A stretch of 64,000 nucleotides of DNA from positions 2,113,001 to 2,177,000 of the forward strand of contig NZ_JAKRKC020000001.1 in assembly GCF_022664455.2 (NCBI RefSeq), given 5' to 3'. Positions within the stretch are counted from its first letter, which is position 1; every line of letters begins with the position of its first letter. The position numbers and the translations under genes were made by a program. Origin of the DNA: Actinomadura luzonensis (lineage in GTDB: Bacteria; Actinomycetota; Actinomycetes; Streptosporangiales; Streptosporangiaceae). This document shows, piece by piece, positions 4,437 to 14,903 of this stretch. The notes beneath the pieces are model-generated. The model saw only the letters and a program-made list of their open reading frames with translations. It was not told where the DNA came from and did not search any database.

Positions 4437-5276
4437 TCAGGCGCAGGTGCGGCCGATGGGGGTGGCGACAGTGGGGTGGCCGAGGTAGCGGTCGATGGAG
4501 TGCGGTTCGTTGCCGTTCTCCACCTCCACCTGCCGCAGCGGCGTCCCCCACGACCGCTCCAGCGGGTGCCCGAGCGCCACCACGTCGTTCACGTCGTACG
4601 TCGTCAGCCAGTCCACCCCGGGATGCACCGTCCCCCGCGCCAGCAGGTTCCGCTGGATGGTGGGCAGGCCCAGCGGCGAGCCGGCCGTCACCCACAGCGT
4701 CACGCGCCGCCGCACCGCCTCCTCCACCAGCAGGTCGCGGCCGACGACCGTCCCCAGGCTGTGGGTGACGAGCACGATCGGCCCGTCGGCGGGGAGCTGG
4801 CGGCGCACCTCGGCGAGCACCGGCTGCCGGCCGTGGCTGAGGTAGACGGCCACGTCCTGGAGGAAGACCTTGATGATCTCCTTGTCGACGCCGGTGCGCC
4901 GGCACACCCATTGGAGCATCTGCCGGGCCAGCGTCCAGGTCAGGATGTCCTCGATGCCCGCCTCCAGCGGCGAGCCGACCGCGCCGGCCAGGTCCGCCAT
5001 CAGGCAGCGTTCCAGCGTGCCGGTCTCGGCCGGCAGGTACGGGTGGAACGGCACCTCCTGCGTGGCCTCCACCGGCACGGCCTCGGCGAGGTCGGGCAGG
5101 CCCGCGATCTCGGCGGTGACCCGGTGGAGCACGTTGCCGTAGTACGCCATCACGGCCTGGACGGGCGGGCGAGCCAGGCCGAGCCCGGCCGACAGCGCGT
5201 GGTCCCACTCCTCCAGCAGGGCTCGCGGGTCCTTGCCCTCCTGCCCCCGGCCGTGGATGAAGACGAGAGTCGTCAC
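4437..5276 (-). CDS. Alpha/beta-fold hydrolase
   Basis: A 279-residue alpha/beta hydrolase. It opens TTLVFIHGRGQEG (oxyanion HGxG-type loop) and has the nucleophile elbow VTHSLGTVVGRDL with Ser173. Likely acid and base are an Asp in TTYDVNDVVALGHP (about 227-233) and His in NEPHSIDRYLGH (about 257). The middle contains an unusual helical lid (AGIEDILTWTLARQMLQWVCRRTGVDKEIIKVFLQD). It reads convergent to the TetR gene and divergent from the kinase gene. Substrate is not evident; an esterase or lipase role is possible. Confidence 0.85.
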   Translation of the reverse strand: MTTLVFIHGRGQEGKDPRALLEEWDHALSAGLGLARPPVQAVMAYYGNVLHRVTAEIAGLPDLAEAVPVEATQEVPFHPYLPAETGTLERCLMADLAGAVGSPLEAGIEDILTWTLARQMLQWVCRRTGVDKEIIKVFLQDVAVYLSHGRQPVLAEVRRQLPADGPIVLVTHSLGTVVGRDLLVEEAVRRRVTLWVTAGSPLGLPTIQRNLLARGTVHPGVDWLTTYDVNDVVALGHPLERSWGTPLRQVEVENGNEPHSIDRYLGHPTVATPIGRTCA

Positions 5277-5365
5277 GTGGGCAGCGTAAGGACGGGCGGC
5301 CCCGGGGCGCGTCAGGGTGCGGATAGGGGGAAGCCCTAGCCCGCGCCCCGGGGCAGACTGGGAGC

Positions 5366-6280
5366 ATGAAGATCGTGGTGCCGGAGGCGCTGACCGCCTC
5401 GCACGTCAGGTGGGACGGCGAGGCCGGCCGCGCCTGGACGGCCGGGCTGCCCGCGCTGGCCGGGCGCTATCTGGAGGAGTGGGAGCTGCGGCTGGACGGT
5501 GAGCCGGGCCACGGCGTGGTGTCCCTGGTGCTGCCGGTGGTCCGGGCGGACGGGACGCCGGCCGCGCTCAAGCTGCAGCCGGTCACCGACGAGAACGTCA
5601 CCGAGGCGGTGGGCCTGCGCGCCTGGGCCGGCGACGGCTCGGTCCGCCTGCTCGCCGAGGACCCGGCCACCGGCACCCTCCTGCTGGAGCGCCTGCACGC
5701 GGGCCGCAGCCTGTCGGCGGTGCCGGACGACCTGGAGGCGCTGGCGGTCCTCACCGCCCTGCTGGCGCGCCTGGTCGCCCACCCCGCTCCGCCCGGCCTG
5801 CGCCGCCTGGCGGACCTCGCGCGGGGCATGCTGGACGGCGTGGACCGCGCGCTGGCCGCCCTCCCCGGCGAGGACGACCGCCGCAGGCTGCGCCGCTGGG
5901 CCGGCGCGCTCGCCGAGGTGGCCGCCGAGCCCGGCGACCGGCTGCTGCACTGGGACCTGCACTACGACAACGTGCTGGCCGCCGACCGGGAGCCGTGGCT
6001 CGCCATCGACCCGAAGCCGCTGGCCGGCGACCCGGGCTTCGACCTGTGGCCGGCGTTGCACAACCGCTGGGCCGACCTGGCGGCGACGGGCGACGTCGGA
6101 CGGGCGGCGCTGCGCCGCTTCGACCTGATGGCCGACGTCCTCGGCCTGGATCCGCGCCGCGCGGCCCGCTGGACGCTGGGCCGGGCGCTGCAGAACGCCC
6201 TGTGGGACGTCGAGGGCGGCGCGGGCCGCCTCGACGAGGCGCACGCGACCCTGGCCGACGCCGTCGCCCGCCGCCTCTGA
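5366..6280 (+). CDS. Aminoglycoside phosphotransferase-family kinase, APH(6)/streptomycin 6-kinase-like
   Basis: A 304-residue protein with a protein-kinase-like fold. Lys69 in AALKLQP and Glu80 match the ATP-anchoring pair, HWDLHYDNVL at 195-204 is the catalytic loop with Asp197, and IDPKPLAGDPGFDL at 214-227 carries the metal-binding Asp215. The wording IDPKP-AGDPxFD is typical of streptomycin/hydroxyurea 6-phosphotransferases. Whether it gives antibiotic resistance or phosphorylates a cell metabolite cannot be told. The start at 5366 follows GGGGCAGACTGGGAGC, which contains a GGGAG ribosome site. Confidence 0.88.
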   Translation: MKIVVPEALTASHVRWDGEAGRAWTAGLPALAGRYLEEWELRLDGEPGHGVVSLVLPVVRADGTPAALKLQPVTDENVTEAVGLRAWAGDGSVRLLAEDPATGTLLLERLHAGRSLSAVPDDLEALAVLTALLARLVAHPAPPGLRRLADLARGMLDGVDRALAALPGEDDRRRLRRWAGALAEVAAEPGDRLLHWDLHYDNVLAADREPWLAIDPKPLAGDPGFDLWPALHNRWADLAATGDVGRAALRRFDLMADVLGLDPRRAARWTLGRALQNALWDVEGGAGRLDEAHATLADAVARRL

Positions 6281-6320
6281 CGAGATCCGGGATCGCCTCT
6301 GACGGAGCCCGCCGGCCGTC

Positions 6321-6348
6321 CCTCTGACGGATCGCCGCCGGTCAGAGG
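6321..6348. terminator. Hairpin between convergent genes
   Basis: CCTCTGAC at 6321-6328 pairs with GTCAGAGG at 6341-6348, with a further CGG/CCG pairing inside. It overlaps the end of the leftward oxidoreductase and follows the kinase by 40 bases, so it can act in both directions. Confidence 0.5.
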
Positions 6349-7277
6349 GTCAGCACGATCTTGCCGTGGCCGTGGCCGGTCTCGATCTCGCGGTGCGCGT
6401 CCGCCGCCTCCGCCAGCGGGTACGCCCGCCGCACCGGCCAGGCGAACCGCCCCTCGGCGTACCGCGCCGCGTAGCGGCCGAGCCGTTCGGCCGTGCGCTC
6501 GCCGCGTACGGTCTGGACGCCCAGCTCGGCGGCCCGCCCGTGCTCGACGAGCGTGACGATCCGCGCCCGGTCGGCGACCAGCTCCAGGGAGACCTCCAGG
6601 GCGTGGCCTCCGGCGCCGTCCAGCGCGGCGTCCACGCCGCCGGGCGCGAGCGCCCGCACCCGGTCGGCCAGCCCTTCCCCGTAGGTGACCGGCTCGGCGC
6701 CGAGCGCGCGCAGGTGGTCGTGGTTGGCCTCGCGGGCGGTGCCGATCACCCGCGCGCCGCGGGCCACGGCGATCTGCGTCGCGGCCGTCCCGACGGCTCC
6801 GGCCGCGCCGTGCACCAGCAGCGTCTCGCCCGCCTTGACGCCGAGCCCGTCGAGGGCGAGTTCGGCGGTCTGCACGCCGGCGGTCAGGCCGCCGGCCACC
6901 TCCCACGGCACGCCGGGCGGCTTGGGGGCCACGTCCGTCGCGTCCACCACGATGTACTCGGCGTAGCCGAACAGCCGCGAGAAGCCCAGCACCTCGTCGC
7001 CCTCGGCCAGGCCGGTCACGCCGGGGCCGACGCGGTCCACCACCCCGGCGAACTCGTTGCCCGGGATGCGCGGGAAGGGCACCTCCCCCAGGTACGGCGG
7101 CAGCCAGCCGGCCCGCACCGCCGTGTCGAAGGGCTGCACCCCGGCCGCCCGCACCCGCACCCGTACCTGGCCGGGCCCCGCCTGCGGGACCGGCAGTTCC
7201 ATCACCTTCAGCACCTCGGGGCCGCCCGGCTCGGCGAACGCCGCCGCCCTCATCACGTTAGTCATGACCGCCAGCAT
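6342..7277 (-). CDS. NADP-dependent oxidoreductase, quinone-reductase type MDR
   Basis: A 311-residue zinc-free MDR enzyme. It shows GVQPFDTAVRAGWLPPYL, the GroES-like IPGNEFAGVVDRVGPGV, and a Rossmann motif LLVHGAAGAVGTAATQIAVARGARVIGTA. The end is GHGHGKIVLTL. The first possible ATG is at 7277 (MLAVMTNVMRAAAF); ATG 7265 is an alternative, and neither has a good ribosome site. A 16-base palindrome lies 5 bases ahead of 7277, so the transcript is probably very short-leadered and controlled by an unlinked regulator. Confidence 0.87.
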   Translation of the reverse strand: MLAVMTNVMRAAAFAEPGGPEVLKVMELPVPQAGPGQVRVRVRAAGVQPFDTAVRAGWLPPYLGEVPFPRIPGNEFAGVVDRVGPGVTGLAEGDEVLGFSRLFGYAEYIVVDATDVAPKPPGVPWEVAGGLTAGVQTAELALDGLGVKAGETLLVHGAAGAVGTAATQIAVARGARVIGTAREANHDHLRALGAEPVTYGEGLADRVRALAPGGVDAALDGAGGHALEVSLELVADRARIVTLVEHGRAAELGVQTVRGERTAERLGRYAARYAEGRFAWPVRRAYPLAEAADAHREIETGHGHGKIVLTL

Positions 7278-7282
7278 GCAAC

Positions 7283-7298
7283 CTCAACCTAGGTTGAG
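7283..7298. promoter_or_regulatory. Perfect 16-base palindrome before the oxidoreductase
   Basis: CTCAACCTAGGTTGAG is an exact palindrome 6 bases upstream of the ATG at 7277. The shape resembles operators of MerR-like or TetR regulators, but no such gene is adjacent. Control of the oxidoreductase is inferred from position. Confidence 0.55.
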
Positions 7299-7411
7299 AG
7301 CAAGTCATCCCGACTTTCAGTCCCGTTTTGGGAACTATCTTCTTTAGTCGTGCTTTATCTAGATATAGTCCGTCGAGACATCGACGCGGGGGATGGGCAC
7401 AACGGGGTGTG

Positions 7412-7963
7412 ATGGCCGACTTCTTTAGTACGGCGTTGAGTTTTCCGACTGTCGTTTTCAGTTTCCTGCTCGTGGTGGTCGTCGGTTATTGGCTGATCGT
7501 CATCACCGGAGTGGTCGAGCTGGACGACGACGCGGCCTGGCTGGGGCTCGGGGGAGTCCCGGCCGGCGTCACGCTCTCGCTGCTGATCGCGCTCGCCTGG
7601 CTGCTGTGCCTGATCGGCAGCCAGGTCGCGAGCGGCGGCCCGCTGCTCGCCGTCCCCTTCGCCGCCGCGGGCGGCGCGTGGCTGGCCGTCCGGGGGCTCA
7701 TCGGGCCGCTGCGCAGGCTGTTCCCCGAGGGCGACCGGCACTCGCGCGGCGACCTGATCGGCCGGCCGTGCGTGATCAGGACCGGCTCGGCGAGCCCCGA
7801 GTTCGGCCAGGCCGAGGTCTCCGCCGCCGACGGCTCCACGGCCGTCGTCCAGGTGCGGACGACGGGCGCGGACCGCCTCGCCCGCGGCGACAAAGCCCTC
7901 ATCTTCGAATACGACAAAGACGGCGAATTCTTCTGGGTCATGCCCTACGAAAGCGAGATTTGA
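7412..7963 (+). CDS. YqiJ-like membrane protein with OB-fold (NfeD-related), flotillin partner
   Basis: A 183-residue protein. Two or three membrane segments fill residues 10-100 (VVFSFLLVVVVGYWLIVITGV, VTLSLLIALAWLLCLIG, LLAVPFAAAGGAWLAV), then a soluble beta-rich domain begins near GDLIGRPCVIRTGSASPEFGQAEVSAADG, like the OB-fold of NfeD/YqiJ proteins. The family pairs with flotillins: in E. coli yqiJ precedes yqiK. Here its TGA overlaps the flotillin ATG in TGATG, so translation is coupled. The ATG at 7412 begins the hydrophobic N-terminus. The 5' region is noticeably less GC-rich than the rest. Probable role: scaffold of a flotillin membrane complex. Confidence 0.85.
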   Translation: MADFFSTALSFPTVVFSFLLVVVVGYWLIVITGVVELDDDAAWLGLGGVPAGVTLSLLIALAWLLCLIGSQVASGGPLLAVPFAAAGGAWLAVRGLIGPLRRLFPEGDRHSRGDLIGRPCVIRTGSASPEFGQAEVSAADGSTAVVQVRTTGADRLARGDKALIFEYDKDGEFFWVMPYESEI

Positions 7964-10074
7964 TGGACGTCATCTCGACAGGTTTCGGTGTTTTCTTAGC
8001 GGTCGTCCTGGTCGTCGCGATCGGCCTGCTCGTCATCATCGGGCGCCTTTTCCGCAAGGTCGAACAGGGCAAGGCACTCATCGTCTCGAAGGTCAACAAG
8101 GTGGACGTGACGTTCACCGGCGCCGTCGTGCTGCCCGTCGTCCACAAGGCCGAGATCATGGACATCTCGGTCAAGACCATCGAGATCGAGCGCTCCGGCC
8201 GCGAGGGACTGATCTGCCGGGACAACATCCGGGCGGACATCAAGATCACCTTCTTCGTCCGGGTGAACAAGACCGCCGAGGACGTCATCAAGGTCGCCCA
8301 GGCCATCGGCACCGCCCGCGCCAGCGACGAGGGCACCCTCCAGTCGTTGTTCAACGCCAAGTTCTCGGAGGCGCTGAAGACCGCCGGCAAGCACCTCGAC
8401 TTCGTCGACCTCTACACCAAGCGCGACGAGTTCCGCGACGAGATCATCCGCCTCATCGGCACCGACCTCAACGGCTACAGCCTGGAGGACGCCGCCATCG
8501 ACTACCTGGAGCAGACCAACCTGCTCCAGCTCGACAAGAACAACATCCTCGACGCGCAGGGCATCAGGAAGATCACCGAGCTGACGGCCATCGAGCACGT
8601 CCGCACGAACGAGTTCCAGCGCAGCGAGGAGAAGGAGATCACCCGCCAGAACGTGGACGCCCGCGAGGCCATCCTCGAACTCCAGCGCCGCCAGGCCGAC
8701 GCCGAGCTGAAGCAGCGACGCGAGATCGAGACCGTCAAGGCCCGCGAGGAGGCGGAGATCGCCCGCGTCCAGGCCGAGGAGCGGCTGCGCGCCCAGAGCG
8801 CCAACATCAAGGCCGACGAGTCCCTCGGCGTGCAGCGCGAGAACCTGGCCCGCGAGGTCGCGGTCGCCGAGAAGAACCGCGAGCGGGTGATCGCCATCGA
8901 GAGTGAGCGCATCGAGAAGGACCGCGTGCTGGAGGTCATCGCCCGCGAGCGGGAGACCGAGCTGTCGCGCATCGCGAAGGACAAGGAGGTCGAGTCCGAG
9001 AAGCGGGTCATCGCCGAGGTCATCCGCGAGCGCATCGTCGTCGACAAGACGGTGGCCGAGCAGGAGGAGGCCATCAAGCGGCTGCGCGTGGTCGAGGAGG
9101 CCGAGCGCACCCGCCAGCAGGTCGTCATCGCCGCCGAGGCCGAGGCCCAGGAGAACCTGGTCAAGGACATCAAGGCGGCCGAGGCCGCCGAGGCCGCCTC
9201 GAAGTTCCGCGCCCGCGAGGAGCTGGTGCTGGCCGAGGCCCGGCAGCAGGCCGCCGAGCTGGAGGCGCGGGCCAAGATCCGGCTCGCCGAGGGCGTGCAG
9301 GCCGAGGCCGCGGCGAGCGGGCTGGCGCAGGTGCAGGTCAAGGAGCGCGACGCCGCGGCCATCGAGCAGGTCGGCCGCGCCGAGGCCGCCGCGCTGCGCG
9401 AGAAGCTGGCCGCCGAGGCCGACGGCGCCAAGGCGATGGCGCTGGTCGAGGGCGAGCGGCTGAAGGCCCAGGCGGCGGGCGAGCAGGCGATGGCCCTGGC
9501 CGGCGCCGCCGCCGTGGGCGAGCGGCTGAAGGCCGAGGCCGAGGGCCTGACCGAGAAGGCCGCCGCGCTGGCCGCGCTGGACGAGGCGAGCCGGGCGCAC
9601 GAGGAGTACCGCCTGCGCCTGGAGGCCGACAAGGAGATCCGGCTCAAGCACATCGACGTCTCCCGCGCGGTGGCCGAGTCGCAGGCGAGCGTGCTGGCCG
9701 CCGGGCTCGCCAAGGCCAACATCGACATCGTCGGCGGCGACACGATGTTCTTCGACAAGGTCGTCGGCTCGATCACGGCGGGCAAGGCCGTGGACGGGTT
9801 CGTGGAGCACTCGCAGGTCGCCGGCGCGATCGCCGGCCCGTACGTCAACGGCCAGGCCAGCCTCGCCGCCGACCTCGCGAACGTCATCAGCGGGGTCCGC
9901 TCCGAGGACCTCAAGAACGTCACCGTCTCCGCCCTGCTCATGAAGCTCATCGCGGCCGGCGGCCCGCAGGTCACCGCGCTCGGCGAGCTGCTGGAGACCG
10001 CCCGCCGGCTCGGCGTCGCCGACTCCCCGGTGAACGGCGCGCACACGGTGACCGCGCTGGCCGGGACGAAGTGA
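7963..10074 (+). CDS. Flotillin / band-7 (SPFH) protein, YqiK-like
   Basis: A 703-residue protein: one N-terminal membrane helix (about residues 9-28), a band-7 domain with KVNKVDVTFTGAVVLPVVHKAEIMDISVKTIEIERSG-type beta strands (about 40-200), then a very long charged coiled coil (about 220-590) rich in EAEIARVQAEERLRAQ- and AAEAEAQE-like repeats, and a globular tail with DKVVGSITAGKAVDGFVEHS. The architecture matches flotillins that oligomerise at membranes. It starts inside the TGA of the YqiJ-like gene, and its own stop overlaps the GTG of the ATPase gene in GTGA, so all three are translationally coupled. Confidence 0.93.
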   Translation: MDVISTGFGVFLAVVLVVAIGLLVIIGRLFRKVEQGKALIVSKVNKVDVTFTGAVVLPVVHKAEIMDISVKTIEIERSGREGLICRDNIRADIKITFFVRVNKTAEDVIKVAQAIGTARASDEGTLQSLFNAKFSEALKTAGKHLDFVDLYTKRDEFRDEIIRLIGTDLNGYSLEDAAIDYLEQTNLLQLDKNNILDAQGIRKITELTAIEHVRTNEFQRSEEKEITRQNVDAREAILELQRRQADAELKQRREIETVKAREEAEIARVQAEERLRAQSANIKADESLGVQRENLAREVAVAEKNRERVIAIESERIEKDRVLEVIARERETELSRIAKDKEVESEKRVIAEVIRERIVVDKTVAEQEEAIKRLRVVEEAERTRQQVVIAAEAEAQENLVKDIKAAEAAEAASKFRAREELVLAEARQQAAELEARAKIRLAEGVQAEAAASGLAQVQVKERDAAAIEQVGRAEAAALREKLAAEADGAKAMALVEGERLKAQAAGEQAMALAGAAAVGERLKAEAEGLTEKAAALAALDEASRAHEEYRLRLEADKEIRLKHIDVSRAVAESQASVLAAGLAKANIDIVGGDTMFFDKVVGSITAGKAVDGFVEHSQVAGAIAGPYVNGQASLAADLANVISGVRSEDLKNVTVSALLMKLIAAGGPQVTALGELLETARRLGVADSPVNGAHTVTALAGTK

Positions 10075-13000
10075 GCATGACCGTCACGGAGCTGGAGGCG
10101 GGGACGTACGAGGTCCTGCGGAACCGCCTCCAGGCCCAGGCCAAGGCCCTCGCGGCGGCCGCCGGGACGCTCAACGGCGAGCGGCTGAAGGTCTTCGGCG
10201 GCGCGGAGCTGCGCCTGCTCGGCACCGAACGCATCAGGACCGAGAACAACTGCGTCCCAAGGGACATCGTCTCGCTGGGCGGGGTGATGTTGTTCGGCTA
10301 CAACGTCTTCATCGGGCTCAAGCCGGAGACGAGCGTGGCCGACGTGTTCGCGGTCCACCGCTTCAGCCGCGACGGCGACGCCTTCCGCTTCGACACCGGC
10401 ACGCTGGACGCGCTCGGCGATCCGGCGTTCGCCAAGGACTTCGCCGAGCTCTACCGCTACTACAAGGAGACCCGGCTCCAGCAGCTCCGGCGGGTCGAGG
10501 GCAAGCTGCTGGCGGTGTTCCGGACCGGCCCGGCCGACCTGCGGGTGCTGCGCTGGGCCGTGGACGCCGCCGGGGTCCCCCGCTACCTGGACAACCGGGG
10601 CGAGCGCGACCACGTCTTCCCGCCGTCGCACGACTTCGCCTGGACGCCGACCACCCGCGACGACCACGTCCTCGGCCGGCACCCGCACATCTCCATCGGG
10701 GGCGAGGTGTTCGTCGAGACGGTCGGCGGCGACCTGACCATCAAGATCGAGGACAACACCGAGACCGGGGCCGGCATCTACAGCGAGCCGGTGAACGAGC
10801 CGCTGCAGAGCCTCGCCGACGCCGACGTCGAGCACGCCCGGGTGGGGCCGCTCGTGCTCATGCGGGTGCGGCCGTACAAGGAGAGCGAGTGGCGGCACCT
10901 GGTCTTCAACACCCGCACCAAGGCCGTCATCCGGCTGGACGGCATCGGGCAGGCCTGCCAGCGGCTGCCCGAGGACCAAGGGCTGATCTTCCCCGGCGGC
11001 TACTACCTGACGACCGGCATCAGCAAGACGTTCGACACCGACGTCAGCGACCTGGAGTTCGAGCGGGTGGTCCGGGCGCCCAACGGCGAGGACGTCCTGT
11101 ACGTCTTCCACGCGCGCGGTGACGGGCGCTCGCTGCTGCTGCCGTACAACGTGATCAGGAAGGAGGTGGCCAACCCCATCGTCTGCCACGGGTACTCGCT
11201 GTTCGACGACGGCACGATGGTGGTCTTCCGCGCCACCTCCGAGGAGCCGACGCGGGTGCACCCGATGCAGGTGTGGCAGACGCCGTACGTCTCCGACACC
11301 TACGCCGCCGCGCAGCCCGCCGGGACCGGGCCGCTGGAGCGCATCGGCAACGCCGAGCTGGTGCGCGGCATCTCCGACTGCCTGTCCGTGGCCCGGATGG
11401 TCGAGGAGATGGCGCCCTCCTCGGCCACGTTCGAGGCGCTGATCGCCGCCTGCACCCGGGCCTTCGACTCCTACCACTGGCTCGCCGAGCACGGCCTGCG
11501 CGGGCCGCTCACCGACGTCCGGGCCACCGCCGAGCAGGTCCTCGACGAGTACGAGAACGTCGAGCAGCTCACTCGCCAGGCCCGCGACACCCTCGGCCGG
11601 ACCGGCGAGGAGATCGCCCACCTGCTCCGCGAGGCGCGCGGCGGCAGCCCGGACAGCGCCGACGCCTGGGTGAGCACGCTCGCCACGCTGCGCCGGGCGC
11701 AGGGCCGGCTGGTGACGCTGCGCGAGACCCGCTACATCGACCTGGCCGCGCTGGACGGCCTGTCGGCGGAGGTGGCCGGGGAGCTGGACGCGACCGGGCG
11801 GCGGGCGGTCGCGTTCCTGTCCGGCGCGGAGGCGTTCACCTCCTACCATGCCGCCGTCGAGCGCCTGGCCGCCGAGGCCGCCGCGATCGCCACGGTGGCC
11901 GAGGCCGGGCCCGTCACCGAGCGGCTGGCCGAGCAGGCCGAGGGGCTGGAGGTGGTGACCGAGGTCGTCGGCTCGCTGGACATCGCCGACGCGACCGTGC
12001 GCACCTCCATCCTCGGCCGCATCGCCGAGGTCCTCGGCGGGGTGAACCGGGCGCGGGCCGTGCTCGACGGGCGGCGGCGCGAGCTGCTGGGCGCCGAGGG
12101 CCGGGCCGCGTTCGCCGCCGAGTTCGCGCTGTTCGGGCAGGCCGTCACCGGGGCGCTGGCGGCGGCCGGCACGCCCGCCGCGTGCGACGAGCAGCTCGGC
12201 CGGCTCATGCTGCACCTGGAGAACCTGGAGTCGCGCTTCGGCGAGTTCGACGACTTCGCCGCGCAGCTCGCCGCCAAGCGGGACGACGTCTACGAGGCGT
12301 TCTCGGCGCGCAAGCAGAGCCGGCTCGACGAGCTGGCGCGGCGGGCCGACCGGCTGTTCGGCTCGGCCGAGCGGGTGCTGGGGACGATCACCCGGCGGCT
12401 CGGGACGCTCGCCTCGCCCGACGAGGTCAACACCTACTTCGCGACCGACCCGATGGTGGCCAAGGTGGGCGCGGCGGCGGCCGAGCTGCGGTCGCTGGGC
12501 GACGCCGTACGGGCCGAGGAGCTGGACGGGCGGGTCAAGGCGGCGCGGCAGGAGGCGGGCCGGGCCCTCCGGGACCGCCTGGAGCTGTTCGACGACGGCG
12601 GCGAGACGCTGCGGCTCGGCCGCCACCGCTTCGCCGTCAACACCCAGCCCATCGACCTGACGCTGGTGCCGCACGAGGGCGCGATGCACTTCGCCATCAC
12701 CGGCACCGACTACCGCTCCCCCGTGCCCGCCTCCTTCGCCGACACCCGGCCGTTCTGGGACCAGCTCCTGGTCTCGGAGACCGCGGACGTCTACCGCGCC
12801 GAGCACCTGGCCGCCTGCCTCCTGCCCGAGGTCACGGCCGGGGTCGCGGTGGCCGACCTGGTCCGGCGGGCCGCCGGGGCCCGCTACGACGAGGGCTACG
12901 AGCGCGGCGTCCACGACCACGACGCGGCCGCTATCCTGGACGCGCTGGTCCGCCTGCGCGAGGGCGCCGGGCTGCTGTGCCACCCGCCGGAGGCACGGGC

Positions 13001-14903
13001 GCTGGCCCAGCTCTTCTGGACGTTCGGGACCGACGAGGTTTCACGTAAAACATTGGCCACCCGGGCCGTGTCGCTGGCCCGCGCCCGCGCCCTGTTCGGG
13101 CCCACTCCCGCGCTGGACGCGCTCGCCGCCGAGCTGGGCGGCCGCATCACCGCCTTCGCCGAGAGCTTGGGTGTCAGCCCGGCCGAGGCGGCGGGCGAGT
13201 ACCTGGTCGAGGAGCTGGGCGGCGCCCCCGACGGGTTCGTGACCGGCAAGGCGGCCCGTGACGTGCTCGACGGGTTCCGCGCCGGGCTCGGCCCGGTCAA
13301 GCTGCGCGAGTTCGAGGCGGACCTGCGGGCGCTGCCGCTGCCCGAGCGGGTGCAGCTCGCCCAGGCCTGGCTGACGGCCTACCACCAGGGCCCCGAGACG
13401 GCCGAGGCCGTCGCCGTGCTGCTCTGCGGCGACCTGCCCCGCTACGACTCCAGCGCCGCCACCACCGCCACGGTGACCGGCCTGCTCGGCACCCACCCCC
13501 GGATCAAGGACCGCGAGCTGAGCCTCCGCCTGGAGGAGTTCCTGCCGCGCACCCGCCGGTTCCGCGCCGAGCGGGTGCCGGCGTACCGGGCCTACCAGCG
13601 CCGCCGCACCGAGCTGGTCCAGGCCGAGCGCGCCCGGCTGCGGCTGGAGGAGTACAAGCCGAAGGTCATGAGCGCCTTCGTCCGCAACCGCCTGCTCGAC
13701 GAGGTCTACCTGCCGCTGATCGGCGACAACCTGGCCAAGCAGGTCGGCGCGGCGGGCGCGGGCAAGCGCACCGACCAGATGGGCCTGCTGCTGCTCATCT
13801 CGCCGCCCGGCTACGGCAAGACCACGCTCATGGAGTACGTGGCGAGCCGCCTCGGCCTGGTCTTCGTCAAGGTGAACGGCCCCGCCCTGGGCCACCAGGT
13901 CACCTCGCTGGACCCGGCCGACGCGCCCGACGCGACCGCCCGGCAGGAGGTCGAGAAGATCTCCTTCGCGCTGGAGACCGGCAACAACACGCTGCTCTAC
14001 CTGGACGACATCCAGCACACCTCGCCGGAGCTGCTGCAGAAGTTCATCTCGCTCTGCGACGCCCAGCGCCGCATCGAGGGCGTGTGGAACGGCCGGACCA
14101 GGACCTACGACCTGCGCGGCAAACGCTTCGCGGTGTGCATGGCGGGCAACCCGTACACCGAGTCGGGCACCCGCTTCCGCATCCCCGACATGCTGGCCAA
14201 CCGGGCCGACGTGTGGAACCTGGGCGACGTGCTGTCCGGCAAGGACGAGCTGTTCGCGCTCAGCTACGTGGACAACGCCCTCACCTCCAACCCGGTGCTC
14301 GCCCCGCTGGCCGGCCGCGACCGGGCGGACGTGGAGCTGCTGGTGCGGCTGGCCAAGGGCGACCCGGCCGTCCGGGCCGACCAGCTCGCGCACCCCTACA
14401 CGAAGCCGGAGCTGGAGCAGATCCTCGCCGTCCTGGCCAAGCTGGTGCGGGCGCAGGAGGTCGTGCTGGCCAACAACCGGGCCTACATCGCCTCGGCGGC
14501 CCAGTCGGACGCGGCGCGGACCGAGCCGCCGTACCGGCTGCAGGGCTCCTACCGCAACATGAACAAGCTGGCCGAGCGGATCGTCCCGGCGATGAACGAC
14601 GACGAGCTGGAGGCGGTGATCGACGACCACTACCTGGGCGAGGCGCAGACGCTGACCGCGGACGCCGAGGCCAACCTGCTCAAGCTGGCCGAGCTGCGCG
14701 GCCGCCTCACCCCGGAGCAGGCCGCGCGCTGGGCGGAGATCAAGCGCGCCTACCTGAAGGCGAAGGCGCTCGGCGGCGCCGAGGACGACCCGGCCGCCCG
14801 GGCCGTGGGCGCGATCGGGCTGCTGGCGGACCGGGTGGGCGAGGTCGGCACGGCCATCAGGGAGTCGCGCACCTCCCCCTGGTTCAGCCCGCCCGCCCGC
14901 TGA
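10071..14903 (+). CDS. Giant AAA ATPase of the DUF3686 'DNA repair ATPase' type
   Basis: A 1610-residue protein. The N-terminal third is beta-rich (RTENNCVPRDIVSLGGVMLFGYNVF, HISIGGEVFVETVGGDLTIKIEDNTE) and matches my memory of DUF3686; the middle is helical and coiled (about 430-800). The C-terminal third is an AAA module: Walker A PPGYGKTT at 1245-1252, Walker B LLYLDDIQ near 1312, sensor-1 AGNPYTESG and arginine-rich FRIPDMLANRADVW, a MoxR-like layout. The name 'DNA repair' in databases is not backed by visible nuclease or helicase motifs. A GTG at 10071 overlaps the flotillin stop; ATG 10077 is an alternative. The 3' end overlaps the convergent lyase gene by 20 bases. Confidence 0.9.
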   Translation: MSMTVTELEAGTYEVLRNRLQAQAKALAAAAGTLNGERLKVFGGAELRLLGTERIRTENNCVPRDIVSLGGVMLFGYNVFIGLKPETSVADVFAVHRFSRDGDAFRFDTGTLDALGDPAFAKDFAELYRYYKETRLQQLRRVEGKLLAVFRTGPADLRVLRWAVDAAGVPRYLDNRGERDHVFPPSHDFAWTPTTRDDHVLGRHPHISIGGEVFVETVGGDLTIKIEDNTETGAGIYSEPVNEPLQSLADADVEHARVGPLVLMRVRPYKESEWRHLVFNTRTKAVIRLDGIGQACQRLPEDQGLIFPGGYYLTTGISKTFDTDVSDLEFERVVRAPNGEDVLYVFHARGDGRSLLLPYNVIRKEVANPIVCHGYSLFDDGTMVVFRATSEEPTRVHPMQVWQTPYVSDTYAAAQPAGTGPLERIGNAELVRGISDCLSVARMVEEMAPSSATFEALIAACTRAFDSYHWLAEHGLRGPLTDVRATAEQVLDEYENVEQLTRQARDTLGRTGEEIAHLLREARGGSPDSADAWVSTLATLRRAQGRLVTLRETRYIDLAALDGLSAEVAGELDATGRRAVAFLSGAEAFTSYHAAVERLAAEAAAIATVAEAGPVTERLAEQAEGLEVVTEVVGSLDIADATVRTSILGRIAEVLGGVNRARAVLDGRRRELLGAEGRAAFAAEFALFGQAVTGALAAAGTPAACDEQLGRLMLHLENLESRFGEFDDFAAQLAAKRDDVYEAFSARKQSRLDELARRADRLFGSAERVLGTITRRLGTLASPDEVNTYFATDPMVAKVGAAAAELRSLGDAVRAEELDGRVKAARQEAGRALRDRLELFDDGGETLRLGRHRFAVNTQPIDLTLVPHEGAMHFAITGTDYRSPVPASFADTRPFWDQLLVSETADVYRAEHLAACLLPEVTAGVAVADLVRRAAGARYDEGYERGVHDHDAAAILDALVRLREGAGLLCHPPEARALAQLFWTFGTDEVSRKTLATRAVSLARARALFGPTPALDALAAELGGRITAFAESLGVSPAEAAGEYLVEELGGAPDGFVTGKAARDVLDGFRAGLGPVKLREFEADLRALPLPERVQLAQAWLTAYHQGPETAEAVAVLLCGDLPRYDSSAATTATVTGLLGTHPRIKDRELSLRLEEFLPRTRRFRAERVPAYRAYQRRRTELVQAERARLRLEEYKPKVMSAFVRNRLLDEVYLPLIGDNLAKQVGAAGAGKRTDQMGLLLLISPPGYGKTTLMEYVASRLGLVFVKVNGPALGHQVTSLDPADAPDATARQEVEKISFALETGNNTLLYLDDIQHTSPELLQKFISLCDAQRRIEGVWNGRTRTYDLRGKRFAVCMAGNPYTESGTRFRIPDMLANRADVWNLGDVLSGKDELFALSYVDNALTSNPVLAPLAGRDRADVELLVRLAKGDPAVRADQLAHPYTKPELEQILAVLAKLVRAQEVVLANNRAYIASAAQSDAARTEPPYRLQGSYRNMNKLAERIVPAMNDDELEAVIDDHYLGEAQTLTADAEANLLKLAELRGRLTPEQAARWAEIKRAYLKAKALGGAEDDPAARAVGAIGLLADRVGEVGTAIRESRTSPWFSPPAR

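Follow-up and report, generated by a model that had tools for sequence, protein, structure and literature searches.

Near-strict co-inheritance of one flotillin lineage with a DUF3686 AAA+ ATPase in an operon of Actinomadura luzonensis and bacteria of other phyla

Operons that combine a Band-7/flotillin gene, a YqiJ/YuaF gene and a gene for an AAA+ ATPase fused to a coiled coil and a beta-propeller have been published, without a function, by Ravi et al. 2024 (PMC11237479). In the E. coli YqiJ-YqiK and B. subtilis YuaF-YuaG/FloT pairs an NfeD2-type gene is followed by one for an SPFH2 flotillin; in HflKC, the SPFH cage houses hexamers of the AAA+ protease FtsH (PMC11260169). The window studied here, a 64,000-nt stretch of contig NZ_JAKRKC020000001.1 of Actinomadura luzonensis, holds a head-to-tail trio on the + strand (7412-14903) that encodes a YqiJ-type membrane protein, a YqiK-type flotillin and a large ATPase of the DUF3686 family (Table 1). 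The trio opens in the same order as the E. coli and B. subtilis pairs, and differs from E. coli yqiJK, which has no ATPase gene beside it.

Its three genes and the domain make-up of its ATPase are those of the 2024 operons: both the multi-transmembrane YqiJ/YuaF protein and the AAA+ module fused to coiled coil and propeller are there, while the CesT/Tir-PspA dyad that the paper describes for the full form is absent from the window. Since the single PspA found in the window's genome lies on another contig, the window shows the form that the paper calls 'abbreviated', without PspA. We equate the DUF3686 protein with the ATPase of the published operon because of a Hymenobacter locus, the plasmid pQBR103 (both described below) and the predicted fold; the passages of the paper on these operons do not use the name DUF3686, nor do they give frequencies, a flotillin lineage or an AAA+ subgroup for the ATPase, and the name was not found in the open-access literature searched. 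The trio is thus not new: it was described in 2024, whereas an earlier sequence-only reading of this DNA had given it as an inference. What is new here is the tightness of the tie between scaffold and ATPase, the flotillin lineage, the frequencies and the AAA+ subgroup.

In the genomes compared, this flotillin lineage and the DUF3686 ATPase are almost strictly co-inherited, mostly with their genes side by side. Two large genome samples show a one-to-one presence and a third comes close to it, by counts that rest partly on draft genomes and on a flotillin profile built from ATPase-paired members. Among 151 genomes of the host family the ATPase is found in 74 and the flotillin in 73, with both in 73, flotillin alone in none and ATPase alone in one (Fisher p 4e-43, shared ancestry ignored). 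A sample of 296 Actinomycetota genomes has the two genes in exactly the same nine, and in a second phylum (239 genomes) all 41 genomes with the ATPase have a high-scoring flotillin. Gene order was judged in a set of 100 DUF3686 loci, mostly actinobacterial, with Myxococcota, Pseudomonadota, Bacteroidota and Deinococcota also represented, 97 of which have enough upstream DNA. DUF3686 genes mostly lacking a flotillin neighbour had been named in advance as the outcome that would speak against the sequence-only reading, and this did not appear: a flotillin lies directly upstream, on the same strand, in 97 of the 97, six of which were judged adjacent on inspection owing to stop-to-stop frame overlaps (L043, L053, L055, L115) or broken flotillin frames (L017, L018). 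The recurrence of the same arrangement across phyla indicates that the trio is real and not a chance juxtaposition.

Adjacency holds for 37 of the 41 second-phylum pairs; two more (G583, G610) run into contig ends, and in another two (G496, G549) the genes stand at separate sites. In G496 (L142, L143) the YqiJ-flotillin pair and the ATPase lie apart on large contigs with unrelated genes beside each, which is a real separation. In G549 flotillin-yqiJ and ATPase are on separate contigs, the upstream DNA being unrelated and the flotillin contig only 4.2 kb long. A pair kept together after separation is stronger evidence of shared function than adjacency alone. One flotillin without an ATPase partner was seen, at the end of a 3.3-kb contig in G565, and 20 second-phylum genomes have only low-scoring flotillins (65-108 bits); for the nine low-scoring flotillins taken into the tree below, no neighbouring ATPase was found in the DNA fetched. 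Flotillin and ATPase distances do correlate in a mirror-tree comparison (rho 0.76, 23 pairs), but a common species history would suffice to produce this, and the correlation is therefore left out of the evidence.

Some damaged copies were also observed: (i) The sole ATPase-only genome of the host family, G318, carries a deletion remnant (L133, 6186-7478, + strand) that joins pieces of all three genes, keeping YqiJ 1-24, flotillin 325-378 and ATPase 6-205 in frames 6186-6746, 6470-6754 and 6750-7478; this is decay of the whole operon in one actinobacterium. (ii) Genome G172 has two operon copies (L017, L018), both with a broken flotillin frame and an open ATPase frame, in a draft assembly where sequencing error is possible. 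(iii) At L013 (G123:C1:2600000-2616000), one of two operon copies, a lone in-frame TAG interrupts the ATPase (5178-10187, - strand), and the second copy is intact.

The ATPase-paired flotillins appear to form a distinct lineage. A tree of 35 SPFH regions has a branch with 100/100 support that separates 25 ATPase-paired flotillins, drawn from five phyla, from 10 ATPase-free ones; long branches meet at this split, and its ATPase-free side, to which E. coli YqiK belongs, is a small sample. The window's flotillin has the marks of the SPFH2 (YqiK/FloT) type, namely an SPFH domain, a coiled coil after it and an NfeD2-type gene in the operon. The Band_7/SPFH match emerges only from a scan of the N-terminal fragment by itself; with the full-length protein, Pfam and NCBIfam gave no match, probably because of the long coiled coil, and a PDB sequence search found no relative. 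That coiled coil had been put at more than 350 residues, with which the composition agrees: over 567 residues there is no proline, and 40% of them are charged or Gln, as would suit a long coiled coil.

The YqiJ-type protein, by comparison of loci, is a frequent but dispensable third part of the unit. It is encoded in 79 of 93 testable loci and missing from the other 14, nearly all of them in Streptomyces, so that the invariant core is flotillin plus ATPase. In the window's version, residues 3-39 and 41-76 are hydrophobic, with room for perhaps three helices, and are followed by a small soluble C-terminal part with a predicted OB fold. No match came from full-length Pfam and NCBIfam scans, and in a fragment scan the Pfam YqiJ model (YqiJ_OB) stayed below threshold (E 0.13); a hidden Markov model (HMM) built from the upstream proteins of the loci recovers E. 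coli YqiJ at E 3e-10.

The ATPase has an intact, invariant AAA+ active site, to which a WD40-like propeller and a set of long helices are joined. Pfam places DUF3686 at residues 27-469 (E 7e-218), DUF7902 at 587-671 and AAA/AAA_5 at 1240-1363. AlphaFold2 models were made in two parts, residues 1-790 and 791-1610, with mean predicted local distance difference test scores of 91.2 and 90.2. The best structural match of the propeller is the WD40 domain of DCAF1 (Z 9.4, root-mean-square deviation (rmsd) 4.9, 203 aligned), and the AAA+ module matches CbbQ and NorQ (Z 17.0 to 15, rmsd 3.5 to 3.9; 6l1q_A, Z 17.0, rmsd 3.7, 253 aligned). The sequence-only reading had put an AAA module in the last third of the protein; the module is present, and its position is better given as the last quarter. 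Walker B reads Asp-Asp (LYLDDIQH) in 101 of 101 sequences, Asp replacing the usual catalytic Glu, a fixed and unusual substitution at the catalytic base. A PDB sequence search with the ATPase returned P-loop matches only, domain scans recognised no protease domain, and no strong transmembrane segment was recognised.

The relation to MoxR-like AAA+ proteins (NorQ-NorD, CbbQ-CbbO, RavA-ViaA) is partial. Theirs is the nearest fold, the model has a beta-hairpin before sensor 1 (model strands 544-549 and 552-557), and there is a dedicated partner gene. Unlike them, the AAA+ module stands at the C-terminal end of a protein of 1610 residues, no VWA-domain partner gene recurs beside the operon, and the model shows no strands between beta-2 and Walker B. 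The missing element, a beta-hairpin insert in helix 2, is the mark of MoxR-like proteins (PMC13036017), and so the ATPase is not filed as a MoxR protein. YqiJ is the only specific recurrent neighbour; beyond it, no specific gene recurs at loci in four or more genera.

A parallel in general design is HflK/HflC-FtsH, an SPFH membrane scaffold with a dedicated AAA+ hexamer. FtsH is a membrane-anchored protease, and in these respects the DUF3686 ATPase, with its CbbQ/NorQ-like AAA+ module, differs. SPFH cages being membrane-attached, and HflKC housing FtsH, the DUF3686 ATPase may by analogy be the flotillin's motor. In such a scheme the flotillin would oligomerise into a membrane-attached cage or ring, and YqiJ would tune its attachment to the membrane; the soluble ATPase, probably a hexamer, would dock on the flotillin through the propeller and/or the coiled coil, and would spend ATP on remodelling, opening or taking apart the flotillin assembly or client proteins held there. 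On balance we lean towards this ATPase being an AAA+ remodeller dedicated to one flotillin lineage, a counterpart, probably non-proteolytic, of HflKC-FtsH that is linked to PspA-type envelope stress. A sharper version is offered tentatively, and we think it slightly more apt to fail than to hold: that one flotillin lineage has an obligate, soluble, non-proteolytic AAA+ protein (DUF3686) driving assembly or disassembly of the cage or its contents, a second SPFH-AAA+ partnership with a CbbQ/NorQ-like motor that lacks both helix-2 insert and VWA partner.

Physical contact between ATPase and flotillin, and the direction of action, are what we infer rather than observe, and three points weigh against the remodelling reading. 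The co-inheritance would also fit an ATPase whose targets are clients or lipids at the flotillin domain rather than flotillin itself; lacking a strong transmembrane segment, the ATPase must contact the membrane indirectly; and the Asp-Asp of Walker B could mean slow hydrolysis. Overall, the interpretation given by the sequence-only reading is partly supported.

The proposed setting in envelope stress comes from relatives. A Hymenobacter locus has the full form, in the order Tir chaperone (CesT/Tir), PspA, DUF1449/YqiJ, flotillin and 'DNA repair ATPase'. On plasmid pQBR103 of Pseudomonas fluorescens SBW25 (L123, 85452-104374) an array runs from PspA through further genes to DUF2491, DUF350, DUF1190, glutathionylspermidine synthase, a YqiJ-like gene, SPFH and 'DNA repair ATPase', and the protein upstream of the SPFH gene is recognised by the YqiJ HMM. 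These arrays, with what the 2024 paper says of its operons, support the link to PSP-type envelope stress that had been suggested from the window, and point to PspA-type stress as the likely setting. The same arrays invite a different mechanism, a PspA/ESCRT-like membrane repair in which the ATPase would act on PspA as Vps4 does on ESCRT-III, flotillin and YqiJ being the platform. CesT/Tir-PspA, or PspA with polyamine-type genes, does precede the trio in Hymenobacter and pQBR103, and ESCRT-like roles are proposed for PspA-AAA+ pairs in PMC11237479. We nevertheless consider this mechanism quite unlikely: in the window's genome PspA lies away from the trio, across the sampled loci it does not recur as a conserved neighbour, and the AAA+ module is most like CbbQ/NorQ among the matches listed.

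That likeness itself suggests another role, a MoxR-like maturation chaperone for a membrane or respiratory complex, with flotillin only gathering the client and not itself remodelled. NorQ and CbbQ, the nearest folds, mature or reactivate other complexes, and the propeller could bind clients; against this, the operon has no conserved client gene beside it, and the co-inheritance is with flotillin across very different genomes, so we hold this role to be unlikely, if worth keeping in view. The DNA repair function in the database label strikes us as most improbable. The Pfam title of DUF3686 carries it, RuvB is the top Foldseek match by E-value, and there is weak P-loop similarity to RuvB (22.9 and 23.7 bits against curated cut-offs of 27 and 282), but CbbQ/NorQ come first on structural Z, and the model is all-helical after the AAA+ core, so that no RuvB-type winged helix is seen. 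RuvB, FtsH and Vps4 are not among the 50 matches listed in the structural Z comparison, which is not taken as proof of differing folds. The sequence-only reading had held that the label has no motif behind it, and that doubt is supported: no DNA-binding domain was recognised in the propeller, helical or AAA+ parts, the context offers no hint of repair, the gene goes together with one for a membrane scaffold, and the literature searched is silent on DUF3686, as said above. The 'defence-type' role suggested in that reading was not borne out, and an anti-phage complex now seems very unlikely. The patchy distribution (9/296 Actinomycetota genomes; 73/151 in the host family) and occasional plasmid carriage would suit one, but PADLOC gave no significant family (nothing better than E 0.003, and that for P-loop residues only), no defence neighbours recur at the sampled loci, no copies were found in viral and phage collections, and the whole ATPase, including the supposed sensor regions, is conserved and not fast-evolving.

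The features of the locus are collected in Table 1. The coupling of the three genes by TGATG and GTGA overlaps, as first proposed, is borne out by the frames, with one reservation: an alternative ATPase start, ATG 10077, two codons downstream of GTG 10071, is equally possible, fits the MT... N-termini of the homologues, and would remove the second overlap, the gene then beginning 2 bases past the flotillin stop. GC at codon position 3 is 0.91 for the yqiJ-like gene, 0.98 for flotillin and 0.99 for the ATPase, as expected of real high-GC genes, and a relative of the ATPase in a Nonomuraea gerenzanensis record matches at 86%. A promoter and terminator scan gave nothing above background. The flanking genes (APH(6)/hydroxyurea-type kinase, alcohol dehydrogenase family, DHDPS-family, LysR, TetR) are unrelated to the operon and are not conserved around it in the sampled loci.

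Table 1. Features of the YqiJ-flotillin-ATPase locus (window positions; residues are those of the encoded protein)
Feature	Position	Strand	Details
yqiJ-like gene, YqiJ/YuaF-type (NfeD2-like)	7412..7963	+	183 aa
YqiK/SPFH2-type flotillin	7963..10074	+	703 aa; ATG overlaps TGA of yqiJ-like gene in TGATG
Flotillin layout			N-terminal membrane segment 1-34, SPFH 32-175, long coiled-coil region, conserved C-terminal part
SPFH/Band 7 domain of flotillin	8056..8487	+	residues 32-175; PF01145, E 6.5e-12
DUF3686 AAA+ ATPase, database label 'DNA repair ATPase'	10071..14903	+	1610 aa from GTG; overlaps flotillin TGA in GTGA
Predicted beta-propeller, WD40-like, most of DUF3686	10212..11285	+	residues 48-405, AlphaFold2 model
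Long-helix/coiled-coil segment, including DUF7902 (587-671)	11295..12440	+	residues 409-790
AAA+ module, nearest folds CbbQ/NorQ (MoxR-like)	13635..14705	+	residues about 1189-1545
Walker A SPPGYGKTT (K1250, T1251)	13800..13826	+	invariant in 101/101 homologues
Walker B ending D1312, D1313	13992..14009	+	invariant in 101/101
Sensor 1 Asn N1360 in MAGNPYT	14148..14150	+	invariant in 101/101
Candidate arginine finger R1378 in PDMLANRAD	14202..14204	+	invariant in 101/101
Candidate sensor 2 Arg R1495 in LQGSYRNM	14553..14555	+	invariant in 101/101

The tie bears on what bacterial flotillins do and on whether anything actively turns their assemblies over. With a lineage hardly ever seen apart from its one ATPase, both can be probed by a direct two-gene test in bacteria that grow in culture, such as Streptomyces and Myxococcus, which carry the operon, and the array on pQBR103 is a tractable place to probe the fitness of plasmid or host under envelope stress. 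If true, the proposed partnership would correct the widely propagated annotation of these proteins as DNA repair ATPases.

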